Shown: positions 4,359 through 54,451 of the stretch, piece after piece
Numbering within the stretch: the stretch's first letter is position 1
How the letters are laid out: each line of letters starts with the position of its first letter
From: an endosymbiont of Bathymodiolus septemdierum str. Myojin knoll
Lineage (GTDB): Bacteria; Pseudomonadota; Gammaproteobacteria; PS1; Pseudothioglobaceae
Length of the DNA: 64,000 nt
Assembly: GCF_001547755.1 (NCBI RefSeq)
Contig: NZ_AP013042.1
Coordinates: forward strand, 930,001 to 994,000
Reading direction: 5' to 3'
The notes under the pieces: model-generated
Told to the model about the DNA's origin: nothing
Databases searched by the model: none
What the model saw: the letters and a program-made list of their open reading frames with translations, nothing else
Translations under genes and position numbers: made by a program

Positions 4359-4399
4359 CTTATAAGCCCGGCGTACAACTTATACGCCGGGCTTATAAG
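4359..4399. repeat. REP-like palindrome, divergent copy
   Basis: The arms CTTATAAGCCCGGCGTA (4359-4375) and TACGCCGGGCTTATAAG (4383-4399) are perfectly complementary. The AAGCCCGGC/GCCGGGCTT core is shared with seven other palindromes in the window, but the flanks and loop differ, so it is the most divergent member. It sits between the convergent tRNA operon and porin gene. Confidence 0.75.
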
Positions 4400-24470: not shown

Positions 24471-24508
24471 AATTCTAAGCCCGGCTTACCTAAGCCGGGC
24501 TTAGAATT
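24471..24508. repeat. REP palindrome, copy 2
   Basis: AATTCTAAGCCCGGCTTA and its complement are separated by CC. The symmetry continues outward: GTTAACCAATTC at the end of the DUF2062 gene is complementary to GAATTGGTTAAC at 24503-24514, which reaches into the ispG stop. It lies between convergent genes and may also work as a bidirectional terminator. Confidence 0.85.
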
Positions 24509-29682: not shown

Positions 29683-29712
29683 CTAAGCCGGGCTTAGGTA
29701 AGCCGGGCTTAG
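29683..29712. repeat. REP palindrome, copy 3 (arm variant)
   Basis: CTAAGCCGGGCTTA, GG, TAAGCCGGGCTTAG. A C-to-G change in the left arm makes the two arms direct repeats of the same short palindrome rather than fully complementary. It lies between the convergent DUF455 and DUF3530-like genes. Confidence 0.8.
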
Positions 29713-37793: not shown

Positions 37794-37825
37794 CCTAAGC
37801 CCGGCTTAGGTAAGCCGGGCTTAGG
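37794..37825. repeat. REP palindrome, copy 4
   Basis: CCTAAGCCCGGCTTA, GG, TAAGCCGGGCTTAGG: perfect arms. The right arm contains the stop codon of the convergent RND gene (37821-37823), so the last codons of that gene come from the repeat. Confidence 0.9.
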
Positions 37826-44498: not shown

Positions 44499-46559
44499 AT
44501 GCCACTATCTGAGGATTTAAAAGGGCAAATTCGTGATTCTTTTATCGCTTTAAAAGACGATATGGATGGCTTTCAATTGCGAGGCGCACAAAATAAAATG
44601 ATTGCAGAAATCTCTAAGACTTTAGCGGGAGAATATAAAGACAATAACAAAATCTTATGTGTAGAAGCCCCAACAGGCACAGGAAAAACCTTCGCTTACT
44701 TACTTTCTGCCATTCCCATCGCCAAAGCCAACAAGAAGAAACTGATTATTTCCAGTGCCAATGTCGCCTTGCAAGAACAATTATTGGTTAAAGATTTACC
44801 CGAAGCCAGTAAATATTGCCAAGCCGAATTCAAATATGAACTGGTTAAAGGTCGCTCCCGCTATGTCTGCATTCGCAACCTCATCAATTTAACAGAAGAC
44901 AATGCAACTGACGAATCTTTGGCGGCAGGCGTTCTATTCGATGAACCCCCTGCACAATACCAAATCCAACAAATGGCAGACTTACTTCGCGACTACTCAG
45001 AGCAAGAATGGAATGGCGAAATCGATGATTTAATACGCACGCCTGATTCTATGGTTTGGCAAAAAATCGCCTGCAATCGCTTCACTTGCACTGCCAAAAA
45101 CTGCGAATTTTACCAAGACTGTTCCTTCTTTAAAGCGCGCAAAAAAATCACTCAAGCCGATGTCATCGTCGCCAATCATGACCTGGTCTTAGCCGATTTA
45201 TCTACTGGTAATACCGTGCTCCCCAATGTCGAAGATGCTATTTTCATTTTTGACGAAGCACACCATTTAAACGCTAAGGCATTGTCACATTTCTCCCTTA
45301 GCACCAGCACCGAATTCATTAAAATCAGCATCCGTCAAGCCAAAAGCGTCAGCGAACAAATCTGTAAAATTACCGAGCAGAATGACATCGAAATCGACAT
45401 TAAGCAAATTGATGAGCATCTACAAGATTTAACAATGATATTCAAAGGTTTGCCTTATGATGATGACACTCATCTATTTAACCAAGGGCAAGTAGATGCA
45501 AGTATTGCTCAAATTTCCACGCAACTCAATACCCTTATTACCGTCACCGCTAACCGTTTTCAACAATTAAAAAAATCGTGGGAGGACTGTCTAAAACTCA
45601 AGCCTTTAGACAAACACATCGCCGACCCCCTTAACAACGCCATCGGCGAAGTCGAGCAACATTTGGTTGGTATCATTGAATTACTTATGTCCTTCTTAAA
45701 AACCGACAATGACACGAAAACCCCTTATTCTCGCTGGATTTCCAAAAATACTGTCAACAAAAAAATCAACTACAGCATTAACAGCGCCCAAACCGATATT
45801 TCCACCAATTTAGACAAACTCATCTGGTCAAAAGCCGCGGGGTGCATCCTTACCTCTGCCACCTTATCCTCACTCGGCAGTTTCGAGCGACTCAATAATC
45901 AACTCGGCTTAATCAAGACAGAAAACCAATATTTACGCCTACCCTCTCCATTTAAATTTGAAAAAGTTGATTTTATCGTCGCTAAATTCCAAGCTAACCC
46001 AACTCAAATCTACGAACACACTCAGGAAGTTGCCACACAACTCCTAGAGCGCATTGATAGCAACGAAGGCAGCTTGGTTTTATTCGCTTCCAATAAACAA
46101 ATGCAAATGGTGGCAGATTTAGTTGAGAAAAAATTAGAGCCACACTTATTAGTGCAAGGCGAATTTTCAAAGAAATTAATTTTAGAAAAACACATCAACC
46201 TGCGTAAACAAGGTCAAGGTTCTGTCATTTTCGGACTTGATAGTTTTGCCGAAGGTGTAGACCTCAAAGGCAACAACCTCACTCATGTTATCATCGCTAA
46301 ATTGCGCTTTAGCGTCCCAACCTCACCGATTGACAAAACCCTTGCTGATTACTTGCAATCACAAAATCGCAATCCTTTTATGGAAATCTCCCTACCAGAT
46401 GCTTCCCTCAAACTTATTCAAGCCTGTGGTCGTTTAATTCGCACCGAAACCGACAGTGGAAAAATCACTATTTTTGACAATCGCATGGTAACAAAATTCT
46501 ACGGCAAACAACTACTCAACGCCCTACCCAACTATAACATTATCATTGAACAGCCCTAA
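44499..46559 (+). CDS. dinG: DinG-family ATP-dependent DNA helicase
   Basis: This 686-residue superfamily 2 (XPD-like) helicase has Walker A APTGTGKTFAYLL, DEAH in FIFDEAHHLN, and four cysteines (in KIACNRFTCTAKNCEFYQDCSFF) that hold the [4Fe-4S] cluster of DinG. The C-terminal motifs GLDSFAEGVDLKG and ACGRLIRTETD are intact. E. coli DinG removes R-loops and unwinds 5' tails. It directly follows ispB. Its last Pro codon and TAA stop coincide with the start of a REP palindrome. Confidence 0.9.
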   Translation: MPLSEDLKGQIRDSFIALKDDMDGFQLRGAQNKMIAEISKTLAGEYKDNNKILCVEAPTGTGKTFAYLLSAIPIAKANKKKLIISSANVALQEQLLVKDLPEASKYCQAEFKYELVKGRSRYVCIRNLINLTEDNATDESLAAGVLFDEPPAQYQIQQMADLLRDYSEQEWNGEIDDLIRTPDSMVWQKIACNRFTCTAKNCEFYQDCSFFKARKKITQADVIVANHDLVLADLSTGNTVLPNVEDAIFIFDEAHHLNAKALSHFSLSTSTEFIKISIRQAKSVSEQICKITEQNDIEIDIKQIDEHLQDLTMIFKGLPYDDDTHLFNQGQVDASIAQISTQLNTLITVTANRFQQLKKSWEDCLKLKPLDKHIADPLNNAIGEVEQHLVGIIELLMSFLKTDNDTKTPYSRWISKNTVNKKINYSINSAQTDISTNLDKLIWSKAAGCILTSATLSSLGSFERLNNQLGLIKTENQYLRLPSPFKFEKVDFIVAKFQANPTQIYEHTQEVATQLLERIDSNEGSLVLFASNKQMQMVADLVEKKLEPHLLVQGEFSKKLILEKHINLRKQGQGSVIFGLDSFAEGVDLKGNNLTHVIIAKLRFSVPTSPIDKTLADYLQSQNRNPFMEISLPDASLKLIQACGRLIRTETDSGKITIFDNRMVTKFYGKQLLNALPNYNIIIEQP

Positions 46560-46585
46560 GCCCGGCTTAGGTAAGCCGGGCTTAG
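46556..46585. repeat. REP palindrome, copy 5
   Basis: CTAAGCCCGGCTTA, GG, TAAGCCGGGCTTAG: perfect arms. It contains the stop codon of dinG (46557-46559) and lies between convergent genes, 4 bases from the DUF2927 stop. Confidence 0.9.
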
Positions 46586-46588
46586 AAA

Positions 46589-47410
46589 TTAAAAGAGTTC
46601 TAATTGTTGACTAAGACGAAGTTTTCTGGCTTTCGATATGGCATTTTTAATTAAGTTTTGTTGCTCAAAATCTAGCAATATCTCATCAATAATAGCACCA
46701 CTCTGTTTAACACCCATACCAACTGCAAGGCGCCTATCATAGAGTATTTTTAACATTAAATAATCTAATCCCGTCAATAAATCTAAGACACTTTTATCGT
46801 TTGCTACTGATGGATTCACCCAATCAGAGTCATTTGGCAAACCCATTGCCTGCGTTAATTCTTCAACGATACAAGCAGGCAAAAGACCATACTTCATTGT
46901 ATGATCAACAGGAATAATAACGGTAGCCCCAACTATTTGATAGTATAAATACTTAAAAGATAATAAACAATTGCTTTCGGTATCAAGATTTTTTATCTTG
47001 CTATCGGTGTATTTGTCAATAGCCTCTTTATAATGCGTTCGCTTGGTGAGTATGACTCTAAAATTAGGGTTTTCATTACTTTTGGCAATCGGCAAAGCCG
47101 TAATATCAGACAAATCTTTAAAATGGTTATCAATCATATTTTCAGCTATCTCCAAAACAGCTGGAAACTTAAAATAATCAACCTTATAGTGAATAGATTT
47201 TTCCCAGCGTCTTAGTTTGTCAACCTTAAGTTCTTGGTTGTATTCATTTTTATAAGCGATTTCAAAAAAAGCTTTTTTAATGTAATCTTTAGATTGCCAC
47301 GATGGCTGAGCGCCAACCGATACCACTATAAATAGAAATAAAAACCCTAAGCCCGGCTTACCTAAGCCGGGCTTAGGGTTGGGCTTAGGGTTAAAAAGAA
47401 AAATCTTCAT
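46589..47410 (-). CDS. DUF2927 family protein with REP-encoded N-terminus
   Basis: The 273-residue frame ends in a domain with VEELTQAMGLPNDSDW, the signature of DUF2927, a family of unknown function that has a metalloprotease-like helix. The first codons after the ATG overlap the end of the transposase gene, and the next run (NPKPNPKPGLGKPGLG) is pure REP sequence. A normal signal-peptide core (FLFLFIVVSVGA) begins after it. The native start therefore seems to have been displaced by the repeat; a GTG in that core is a possible start. It may be functional, altered or degraded. Confidence 0.65.
   Translation of the reverse strand: MKIFLFNPKPNPKPGLGKPGLGFLFLFIVVSVGAQPSWQSKDYIKKAFFEIAYKNEYNQELKVDKLRRWEKSIHYKVDYFKFPAVLEIAENMIDNHFKDLSDITALPIAKSNENPNFRVILTKRTHYKEAIDKYTDSKIKNLDTESNCLLSFKYLYYQIVGATVIIPVDHTMKYGLLPACIVEELTQAMGLPNDSDWVNPSVANDKSVLDLLTGLDYLMLKILYDRRLAVGMGVKQSGAIIDEILLDFEQQNLIKNAISKARKLRLSQQLELF
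47343..47392. repeat. REP palindrome, copy 6, with extra half-unit
   Basis: AACCCTAAGCCCGGCTTA, CC, then its complement (47363-47380), followed by an additional GGGCTTAGGGTT (47381-47392). It overlaps the stop of the transposase gene and is read as the first codons of the DUF2927 frame. Confidence 0.9.
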
Positions 47411-48017
47411 TTTCTAAATTAATATTTTTATTATCAGCAAAAGAAATAGAGGCGTTTGTAGCATATTTTTTATACTCTTCCAGACCGCCAACTTCATTTA
47501 AAATATTATTAATTTCATTCTCTGAGCAAATACGCCTACCCATTTCCATATCCAGATATTCAAAAATACTCGACTTAACCATTCTTGTTTGTCTGTCTAT
47601 TTTATGGTGCTTGTAGTTTAAATTAACATAACTTGCCAATGTGGGCAAGGCATACTCTCCATTCAAATGATTTGCTTTAAATCGCCCTTGAAAAAGTGAA
47701 CCATTTCTTTTGTATTTTTTATTAAAAAACTTAGCATAGGAAGTGCATAATTTTTGCATAAATCTAGAAATCCCCTCATCGGAGACCTGTCTCAACAACA
47801 AATGAAAATGATTGGGCAATAAGCAATAAGCAACAATATCAACAAATTTTTCTGGACTTTGGGTAAATGGGCTGGTATCCACCTTATTAAAAATCAGCAA
47901 CCCATTAAAAAAGAATTGCAAATCTTCTGAATCAATAAAAATATCACGCCGCTCAACCCCGCGATTAAACACATGATAATACTCTTTATTAACCAACTCA
48001 ACTTTTCTTATCGACAT
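47391..48017 (-). CDS. REP-associated tyrosine transposase (RAYT, Y1_Tnp/TnpA_REP)
   Basis: The protein has about 208 residues. The Y1-transposase hallmarks are YYHVFNRGVERRDIF near the start, the HUH motif in LLPNHFHLLL, and the helix with the candidate catalytic Tyr (SYAKFFNKKYKRNGSLFQGRFK). RAYTs act on REP palindromes as single-strand nucleases and are domesticated relatives of IS200/IS605 transposases. The gene is flanked on both sides by REPs that match the rest of the window. I use the ATG at 48017 (MSIRKVELV); an earlier ATG at 48038 is possible. The C-terminal tail is acidic and unrelated to the core. Confidence 0.9.
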   Translation of the reverse strand: MSIRKVELVNKEYYHVFNRGVERRDIFIDSEDLQFFFNGLLIFNKVDTSPFTQSPEKFVDIVAYCLLPNHFHLLLRQVSDEGISRFMQKLCTSYAKFFNKKYKRNGSLFQGRFKANHLNGEYALPTLASYVNLNYKHHKIDRQTRMVKSSIFEYLDMEMGRRICSENEINNILNEVGGLEEYKKYATNASISFADNKNINLENEDFSF

Positions 48018-48062
48018 AATTTCCCACCAGATTCCCATCTACATTTAAAATTATAACATAAA

Positions 48063-48097
48063 CCCTAAGCCCGGCTTAACTAAGCCGGGCTTAGGTT
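48063..48097. repeat. REP palindrome, copy 7
   Basis: CTAAGCCCGGCTTA, AC, TAAGCCGGGCTTAG with partly complementary AACC/GGTT flanks. It lies upstream of the transposase start and touches the stop codon of the HlyD-like gene at its other edge. Confidence 0.9.
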
Positions 48098-54328: not shown

Positions 54329-54410
54329 AAAAAAACCCTAACATAATTTTAATTCACTGCGTATTATACATTACCATTCTTCTTTGGTATTTTAAAACAT
54401 ACAGCCAAAA

Positions 54411-54440
54411 CTAAGCCCGGCTTAGGTAAGCCGGGCTTAG
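54411..54440. repeat. REP palindrome, copy 8
   Basis: CTAAGCCCGGCTTA, GG, TAAGCCGGGCTTAG with further AAAA/TTTT symmetry (54407-54444). It lies between the adhesin terminator and the TolC-like gene. Confidence 0.9.
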
Positions 54441-54451
54441 TTTTATAGTTT

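Follow-up and report, generated by a model that had tools for sequence, protein, structure and literature searches.

The window (the whole 64,000-nt stretch analysed) corresponds to positions 930001-994000 of the single 1,469,434-base contig of a deep-sea mussel symbiont of the SUP05/Thioglobaceae group. It carries a gene for a Y1/HUH transposase, which is framed by two perfect palindromes of the form TAAGCCCGGCTTA-NN-TAAGCCGGGCTTA and lies between the DUF2927 and hlyD genes. The features considered here are listed below (palindromes and repeats without strand).

47391..48038, minus strand: Y1/HUH transposase gene, RAYT-like, 215 aa (ORF, Pfam Y1_Tnp, orthologue alignment, fold match)
47343..47380: palindrome flanking the transposase gene on its 3' side, AACCCTAAGCCCGGCTTA-CC-TAAGCCGGGCTTAGGGTT, with perfect 18-nt arms and a 2-nt centre
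47381..47392: extra half-arm repeat GGGCTTAGGGTT adjoining this flanking palindrome (sequence repeat, family D2)
48064..48095: palindrome flanking the transposase gene on its 5' side, between the hlyD end and the transposase start, with perfect 15-nt arms
46589..47410, minus strand: DUF2927 gene (ORF, Pfam), signal-peptide region rewritten by insertion (MKIFLF-NPKPNPKPGLGKPGLG-FLFLFIVV)
46556..46585: copy at the convergent helicase/DUF2927 junction, providing the helicase stop codon (28-mer match at 46557)
37795..37824: copy between convergent genes (28-mer match at 37796)
29683..29712: copy between convergent genes, a one-mismatch variant (28-mer match at 29684)
24471..24508: copy between convergent genes, extended beyond its core by 5 extra complementary pairs (28-mer match at 24476)
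54407..54444: copy between genes, with 5 extra complementary pairs, AAAAC/GTTTT (28-mer match at 54412)
4359..4399: palindrome of a second family, TTATAAGCCCGGCGTA...TACGCCGGGCTTATAA, cognate of the RAYT paralogue at genome position 368462

The transposase and its palindromes

A sequence-only reading of the window had proposed a Y1-type transposase with the HUH motif PNHFHLLL and a helix tyrosine, and the open reading frame, a Pfam Y1_Tnp match (E 8e-9) and the orthologue alignment agree with it. The motif PNHFHLLL occupies residues 75-82 and the tyrosine, within YVNLN, is residue 137; the HUH motif and the tyrosine are invariant in 12 orthologues and align with H59, H61 and Y115 of E. coli RayT, all of which are kept. 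The start common to the family is probably Met8 (48017). Within the window genome the gene is present in one copy at 100% identity, the next protein being 51% identical; related transposases occur in 1-3 copies per genome, with paralogues 47-59% identical to one another. Some orthologues contain internal stops, and at some loci degenerate palindrome pairs are all that is present. No TnpB partner was seen beside the transposase among the window ORFs. Four more, distant Y1 proteins are encoded at genome positions 814950, 1001160, 42358 and 189701.

The 51% paralogue (genome positions 368462-369076; L014/L325) has a palindrome family of its own. It is flanked by TTATAAGCCCGGCG-type palindromes, one copy of which lies in frame inside the gene.

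The palindrome at 47343-47380 folds as a hairpin of -21.7 kcal/mol (z -5.6). A search with the 28-mer TAAGCCCGGCTTA-NN-TAAGCCGGGCTTA, allowing up to 3 mismatches, found 7 copies in the window (24476, 29684, 37796, 46557, 47348, 48066 and 54412), the expectation from 100 shuffles being 0.00. The bracketing of the gene by REPs at 47343-47392 and 48063-48097, as proposed earlier, is seen in the perfect palindromes at 47343-47380 and 48064-48095. Of the six further copies claimed, those at 24471, 29683, 37794, 46556 and 54411 stand, while the one at 4359 belongs to the second family. The statement that all copies lie between genes holds approximately, but the helicase stop codon comes from the copy at 46557, the one at 47348 is inside the N-terminal end of the DUF2927 ORF as it now stands, and three copies outside the window lie in frame inside genes (L001, L002 and L012). 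Similarly, the 2-base centre attributed to the core is a spacer between two halves: the repeating unit is more aptly seen as a 13-nt hairpin, TAAGC-CCG-GCTTA, whose centre is 3 nt long and which is found either alone or as two inverted copies separated by the 2-nt spacer. Lone 13-nt halves are also present elsewhere.

Copy number, occupied sites and empty sites

The palindrome occurs in 12 copies in the 1.47-Mb window genome and in none of 39 relatives. The sequence-only reading had suggested such a count, together with a search for empty sites, and had named as evidence against itself a palindrome equally common in relatives without the transposase; with 0 copies in the 39 relatives, this is not what was found. 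Empty sites were likewise found, the congeners being without this palindrome at the places tested.

In the window genome, the whole unit occupies the beginning of the DUF2927 gene, and the palindrome is translated as NPKPNPKPGLGKPGLG in the leader. In relatives an uninterrupted DUF2927 leader lies beside hlyD, and in six congeners (G004, G005, G007, G008, G010 and G011) the DUF2927-hlyD spacing is 77-105 bp, with neither transposase nor palindrome. The site of the 46557 copy is empty in G005 (8 bp) and G011; at this helicase/DUF2927 junction, where the window genome has a palindrome alone, G007 carries a different RAYT unit (C16:15901-16527; L135, L201). No palindrome is present at the site of the 37795 copy in G003, G006 and G008, nor at that of the 24471 copy in eight or nine congeners. 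The site corresponding to genome position 876838 is a short junction in G005 and holds a different palindrome of its own in G002. Finally, folD (genome position 1190537, L012) contains a 15-bp in-frame insertion of a palindrome half, absent from 11 relatives, which lengthens the protein by 5 residues. This insertion adjoins native codons that already resemble the other palindrome half, which, as one clear case beside a suggestive one (the DUF2927 leader), hints that resemblance of the target may matter. Even the closest empty sites differ by 10-30% in intergenic DNA, too much for target-site duplications to be called.

The near-identity of the copies had been taken as a sign of recent activity. 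The insertions are indeed younger than the split from congeners that are approximately 72-80% identical at the DNA level, but conversion could also keep copies near-identical.

Of the 16 dispersed copies, 10 are no more than 50 kb from a RAYT gene (2.2 expected, P 1e-5). REPs are reported to accumulate sometimes near the gene in marine gammaproteobacteria (PMC2817692), a trait that the present system shares with REPtrons; as it was already described there, and as G005 shows no such clustering, it was dropped as a new feature. At three loci of G005 (L268, L278 and L280) palindrome copies have shared flanking sequence, and some of the spread is therefore within a longer repeat.

Related loci and turnover of the stems

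In the survey of related loci of Thioglobaceae and Patescibacteria, a matched palindrome with the same 13-nt core was found on both flanks at 49 of 84 loci, against 9 of 400 in a cross-locus control. These comprise 24 of 29 loci of Thioglobaceae and 25 of the other 55, which are almost all from Patescibacteria. A second measure of matched flanks gave 53/81 against 2/150 in the control. At the remaining 35 loci the flank test gave no matched pair; for some of these contig ends are the reason, and many belong to distant Patescibacteria. The matched palindromes at the 49 loci have a 3-nt centre and a mean stem of 10.

In relatives the orthologues stand between palindromes of other sequence, e.g. 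ACACCCACGCCCGGCGTGGGTGT, TTGACAAGGTTCGACCTTGTCAA and GTATTATAGGCAAGGCCTATAATAC. In total, 31 distinct cores were distinguished, and the distance between cores rises with that between proteins (Mantel r 0.59, 0/5000 permutations), a correlation to which the kinship of the sequences by itself adds. The palindromes are also multi-copy in other genomes (26 copies in G005, 9 in G007, 19 in G024 and 11 in G018), with up to 20 copies in Patescibacteria. In 18 of 51 transposase genes the gene's own palindrome lies in frame inside it, either ahead of the HUH motif or beyond the Tyr helix.

The tree unites the Thioglobaceae genes with six others, of which five are Patescibacteria records and one is labelled Crocinitomicaceae, in a clade with 100/100 support that is placed among Patescibacterial genes, and no other full-length relatives of the transposase were found among 299 Pseudomonadota genomes. 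Taken together, this suggests transfer between Thioglobaceae and Patescibacteria, in either direction, with the caveats that the 80 loci compared are the best of 333 and that contigs may be misbinned. The closest relatives outside Thioglobaceae (L127, L132, L133, L134, L136 and L137) come from vent and sediment Patescibacteria and from one contig labelled Crocinitomicaceae (transfer or misbinning). Among the papers listed by a literature search, none links RAYTs to palindromes in Patescibacteria.

Beyond the core, extra outer pairs vary from copy to copy in the window genome, and at least 5 of them are present in 4 of 12 copies, compared with 2.3% for swapped flanks; the cross-locus control means near 92 and 110 for G007 and G000_mono, which arise from a sequence being paired with its own reverse complement, were left out of account. 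Orthologous sites compared among Thioglobus relatives lack a palindrome in one genome and have it in a second, while the palindrome in a third has different, still complementary arms. Two orthologous sites differ by compensated stems. At one coding site (L287 position 1798; orthologues L331, L342 and L344), relatives have different palindromes with no difference in length, and one of these, GACCCAAGCAAGGCTTGGGTC in G336 and L107, is exactly that of the genome's own transposase. Selection for the hairpin, template switching and the enzyme are candidate causes of the matching outer arms. It is also conceivable, although rather doubtful, that the copy-specific arms reflect insertion at the centre of small pre-existing palindromes, as the excess over swapped flanks and the REP dimers reported inside longer palindromes in Anabaena and Halothiobacillus (PMC3733652) would allow; the aligned empty sites in congeners are without such a palindrome, and the different self-complementary stems at orthologous Thioglobus sites point to arms made or changed after insertion. 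The same-length palindromes at the coding site, the compensated stems at two sites and the in-frame copies in 18 of 51 genes also led us to consider that the transposase may in addition rewrite inherited palindromes in place, including the in-gene copy, to the currently recognised one, with the enzyme segment and the target changing together; we regard this as unlikely.

Interpretation and relation to known systems

The core of the sequence-only reading, that a Y1 transposase has a family of dispersed palindromes of its own, receives strong support from the genome-specific copies, the empty sites, the arrangement at orthologous loci and the fold. Very probably, the locus is a REPtron-like unit consisting of a single-copy Y1 HUH transposase and its own dispersed palindrome family, and represents a little-described branch present in deep-sea symbionts and Patescibacteria. 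The association of palindrome and transposase, the insertions and the co-divergence are computed results. From what is known of the family, we infer that the enzyme would recognise the palindrome with its 3-nt centre as a folded single-strand hairpin and nick beside it. It may then help to copy or move the palindrome to other places, mostly gene ends, presumably by single-strand transfer as in TnpA-REP and with low activity. With the same palindrome on both sides of the gene, the whole unit could move too, and joint change of transposase and palindrome would give each lineage its own palindrome.

Two other explanations were weighed against this REPtron-like unit. If the palindromes were ordinary bidirectional terminators, multiplied by other means, and the transposase merely happened to lie beside two of them, the location of many copies between convergent genes and their terminator-like scores on both strands (scan) would be accounted for. 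Such a view does not predict that at 49 of 84 loci matching palindromes, of a sequence that differs from lineage to lineage, stand on the two sides of the transposase, nor does it predict the in-frame copies inside genes, transposase genes included, nor the co-divergence of palindrome and protein; as a full explanation it is highly improbable and was rejected, and terminator activity as a side effect is plausible. It is still less probable that the palindromes are terminal inverted repeats of an IS200/IS605-like element, of which the solitary copies would be relics left by excision or deletion. The unit does consist of a gene with a hairpin at each end, congeners lack it as a whole, a complete other unit occupies in G007 the junction at which the window genome has the palindrome alone, and tyrosine transposases flanked by terminal inverted repeats (TIRtrons) have been described (PMC3733652). 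Against this, the palindromes (12-26) far exceed the 1-3 transposase copies per genome, whose paralogues share just 47-59% identity, the 15-bp insertion in folD leaves no room for a former element, and the tyrosine motif is not of the IS200 type (Y...Q).

The predicted structure, of moderate confidence (pLDDT 77, pTM 0.76), is best matched among solved structures by 4er8, in which the E. coli RAYT is complexed with a REP hairpin, and next by the IS608 and ISDra2 enzymes; a sequence-only phmmer search of the PDB with the transposase gave no match. A GT[AG]G tag near both flanking palindromes was found at just 1 of 49 loci. Of the RayT residues listed as contacting GTAG (W94, Q95, E100, H101 and R104; PMC6006769), Q95 alone is kept, with W94 replaced by F, E100 by A or S, and H101 and R104 variable. 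The NCBIfam RAYT model NF047646 scores 32.9 bits and does not reach its cut-off of 80. With the tag missing, four of the five contact residues replaced and this cut-off failed, the system falls outside the canonical RAYT/REP type. The earlier assignment of the locus to the Escherichia and Pseudomonas pattern needs qualifying: it agrees with that pattern in its flanking and dispersed palindromes and its 4er8-like fold, but not in the tag, the contact residues, the model score or the copy number of 12.

These results extend the REP/RAYT idea to a Y1 branch that a published survey described as being without REPs, and to Patescibacteria. Over 30 natural pairs of enzyme and palindrome are available in this branch; their palindromes have perfect stems around a 3-nt centre and no GTAG tag, and many are at known empty and occupied sites. 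The questions of how these enzymes read their palindrome, and of how a new family originates with the enzyme keeping pace, thereby become testable. Deep-sea mussel symbionts and their relatives have the system in reduced genomes, in which gene ends and a signal peptide have been rewritten by the palindromes.

Judged by its motifs, the transposase appears nearest to TnpA-Y1 subclass 2.1, as NHFH and FQ are present and YVNLN is retained, with the P of Y[IV]xLNP being Y, H or N here. The two have in common NH[YF]H and FQ, the Y-V-x-L-N helix motif and a C-terminal extension, but subclass 2.1 was reported without REP-like sequences (Quentin et al. 2018, PMC6006769; Bertels group 1), whereas clear palindromes are found here at 49 of 84 loci. 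With the REPtrons of E. coli, Stenotrophomonas and Pseudomonas (PMC2817692, PMC8266576) the system shares a Y1 HUH gene that is present once and lies between copies of its own palindrome, an enzyme-specific palindrome family, co-divergence and the fold; it differs in having no GT[AG]G tag, in the replacement of RayT W94, E100, H101 and R104, in NY, NH or NN instead of the NP of the tyrosine motif, in a longer C-terminus and in its low copy number (12, not hundreds). The perfect-stem REPs of RAYT group 3, whose 3-4-nt loop is read by the enzyme, are similar to the present palindromes. In TIRtrons/TIRYT (De Nocera et al. 2013, PMC3733652) a Y1 gene is likewise flanked by non-GTAG repeats, some of them self-complementary and some repeated in the genome (PMC3733652), but the repeats described here consistently form near-perfect palindromes around a 3-nt centre, and inspection of the listed sequences by eye did not show the GGGGWSAS motif reported for many TIRs. 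REP copies in frame inside the transposase gene are shared with TnpA-Y1 subclass 2.4 (PMC6006769), whose REPs bear GT[AG]G, while the in-gene copies of the present branch immediately precede the HUH motif or follow the Tyr helix. Finally, IS200/IS605 elements (IS608, ISDra2) have the HUH-Y1 fold and terminal hairpins in common with this system, which is distinguished from them by YVNLN in place of a Y...Q motif, by a low gene copy number and by palindromes that far outnumber the genes.
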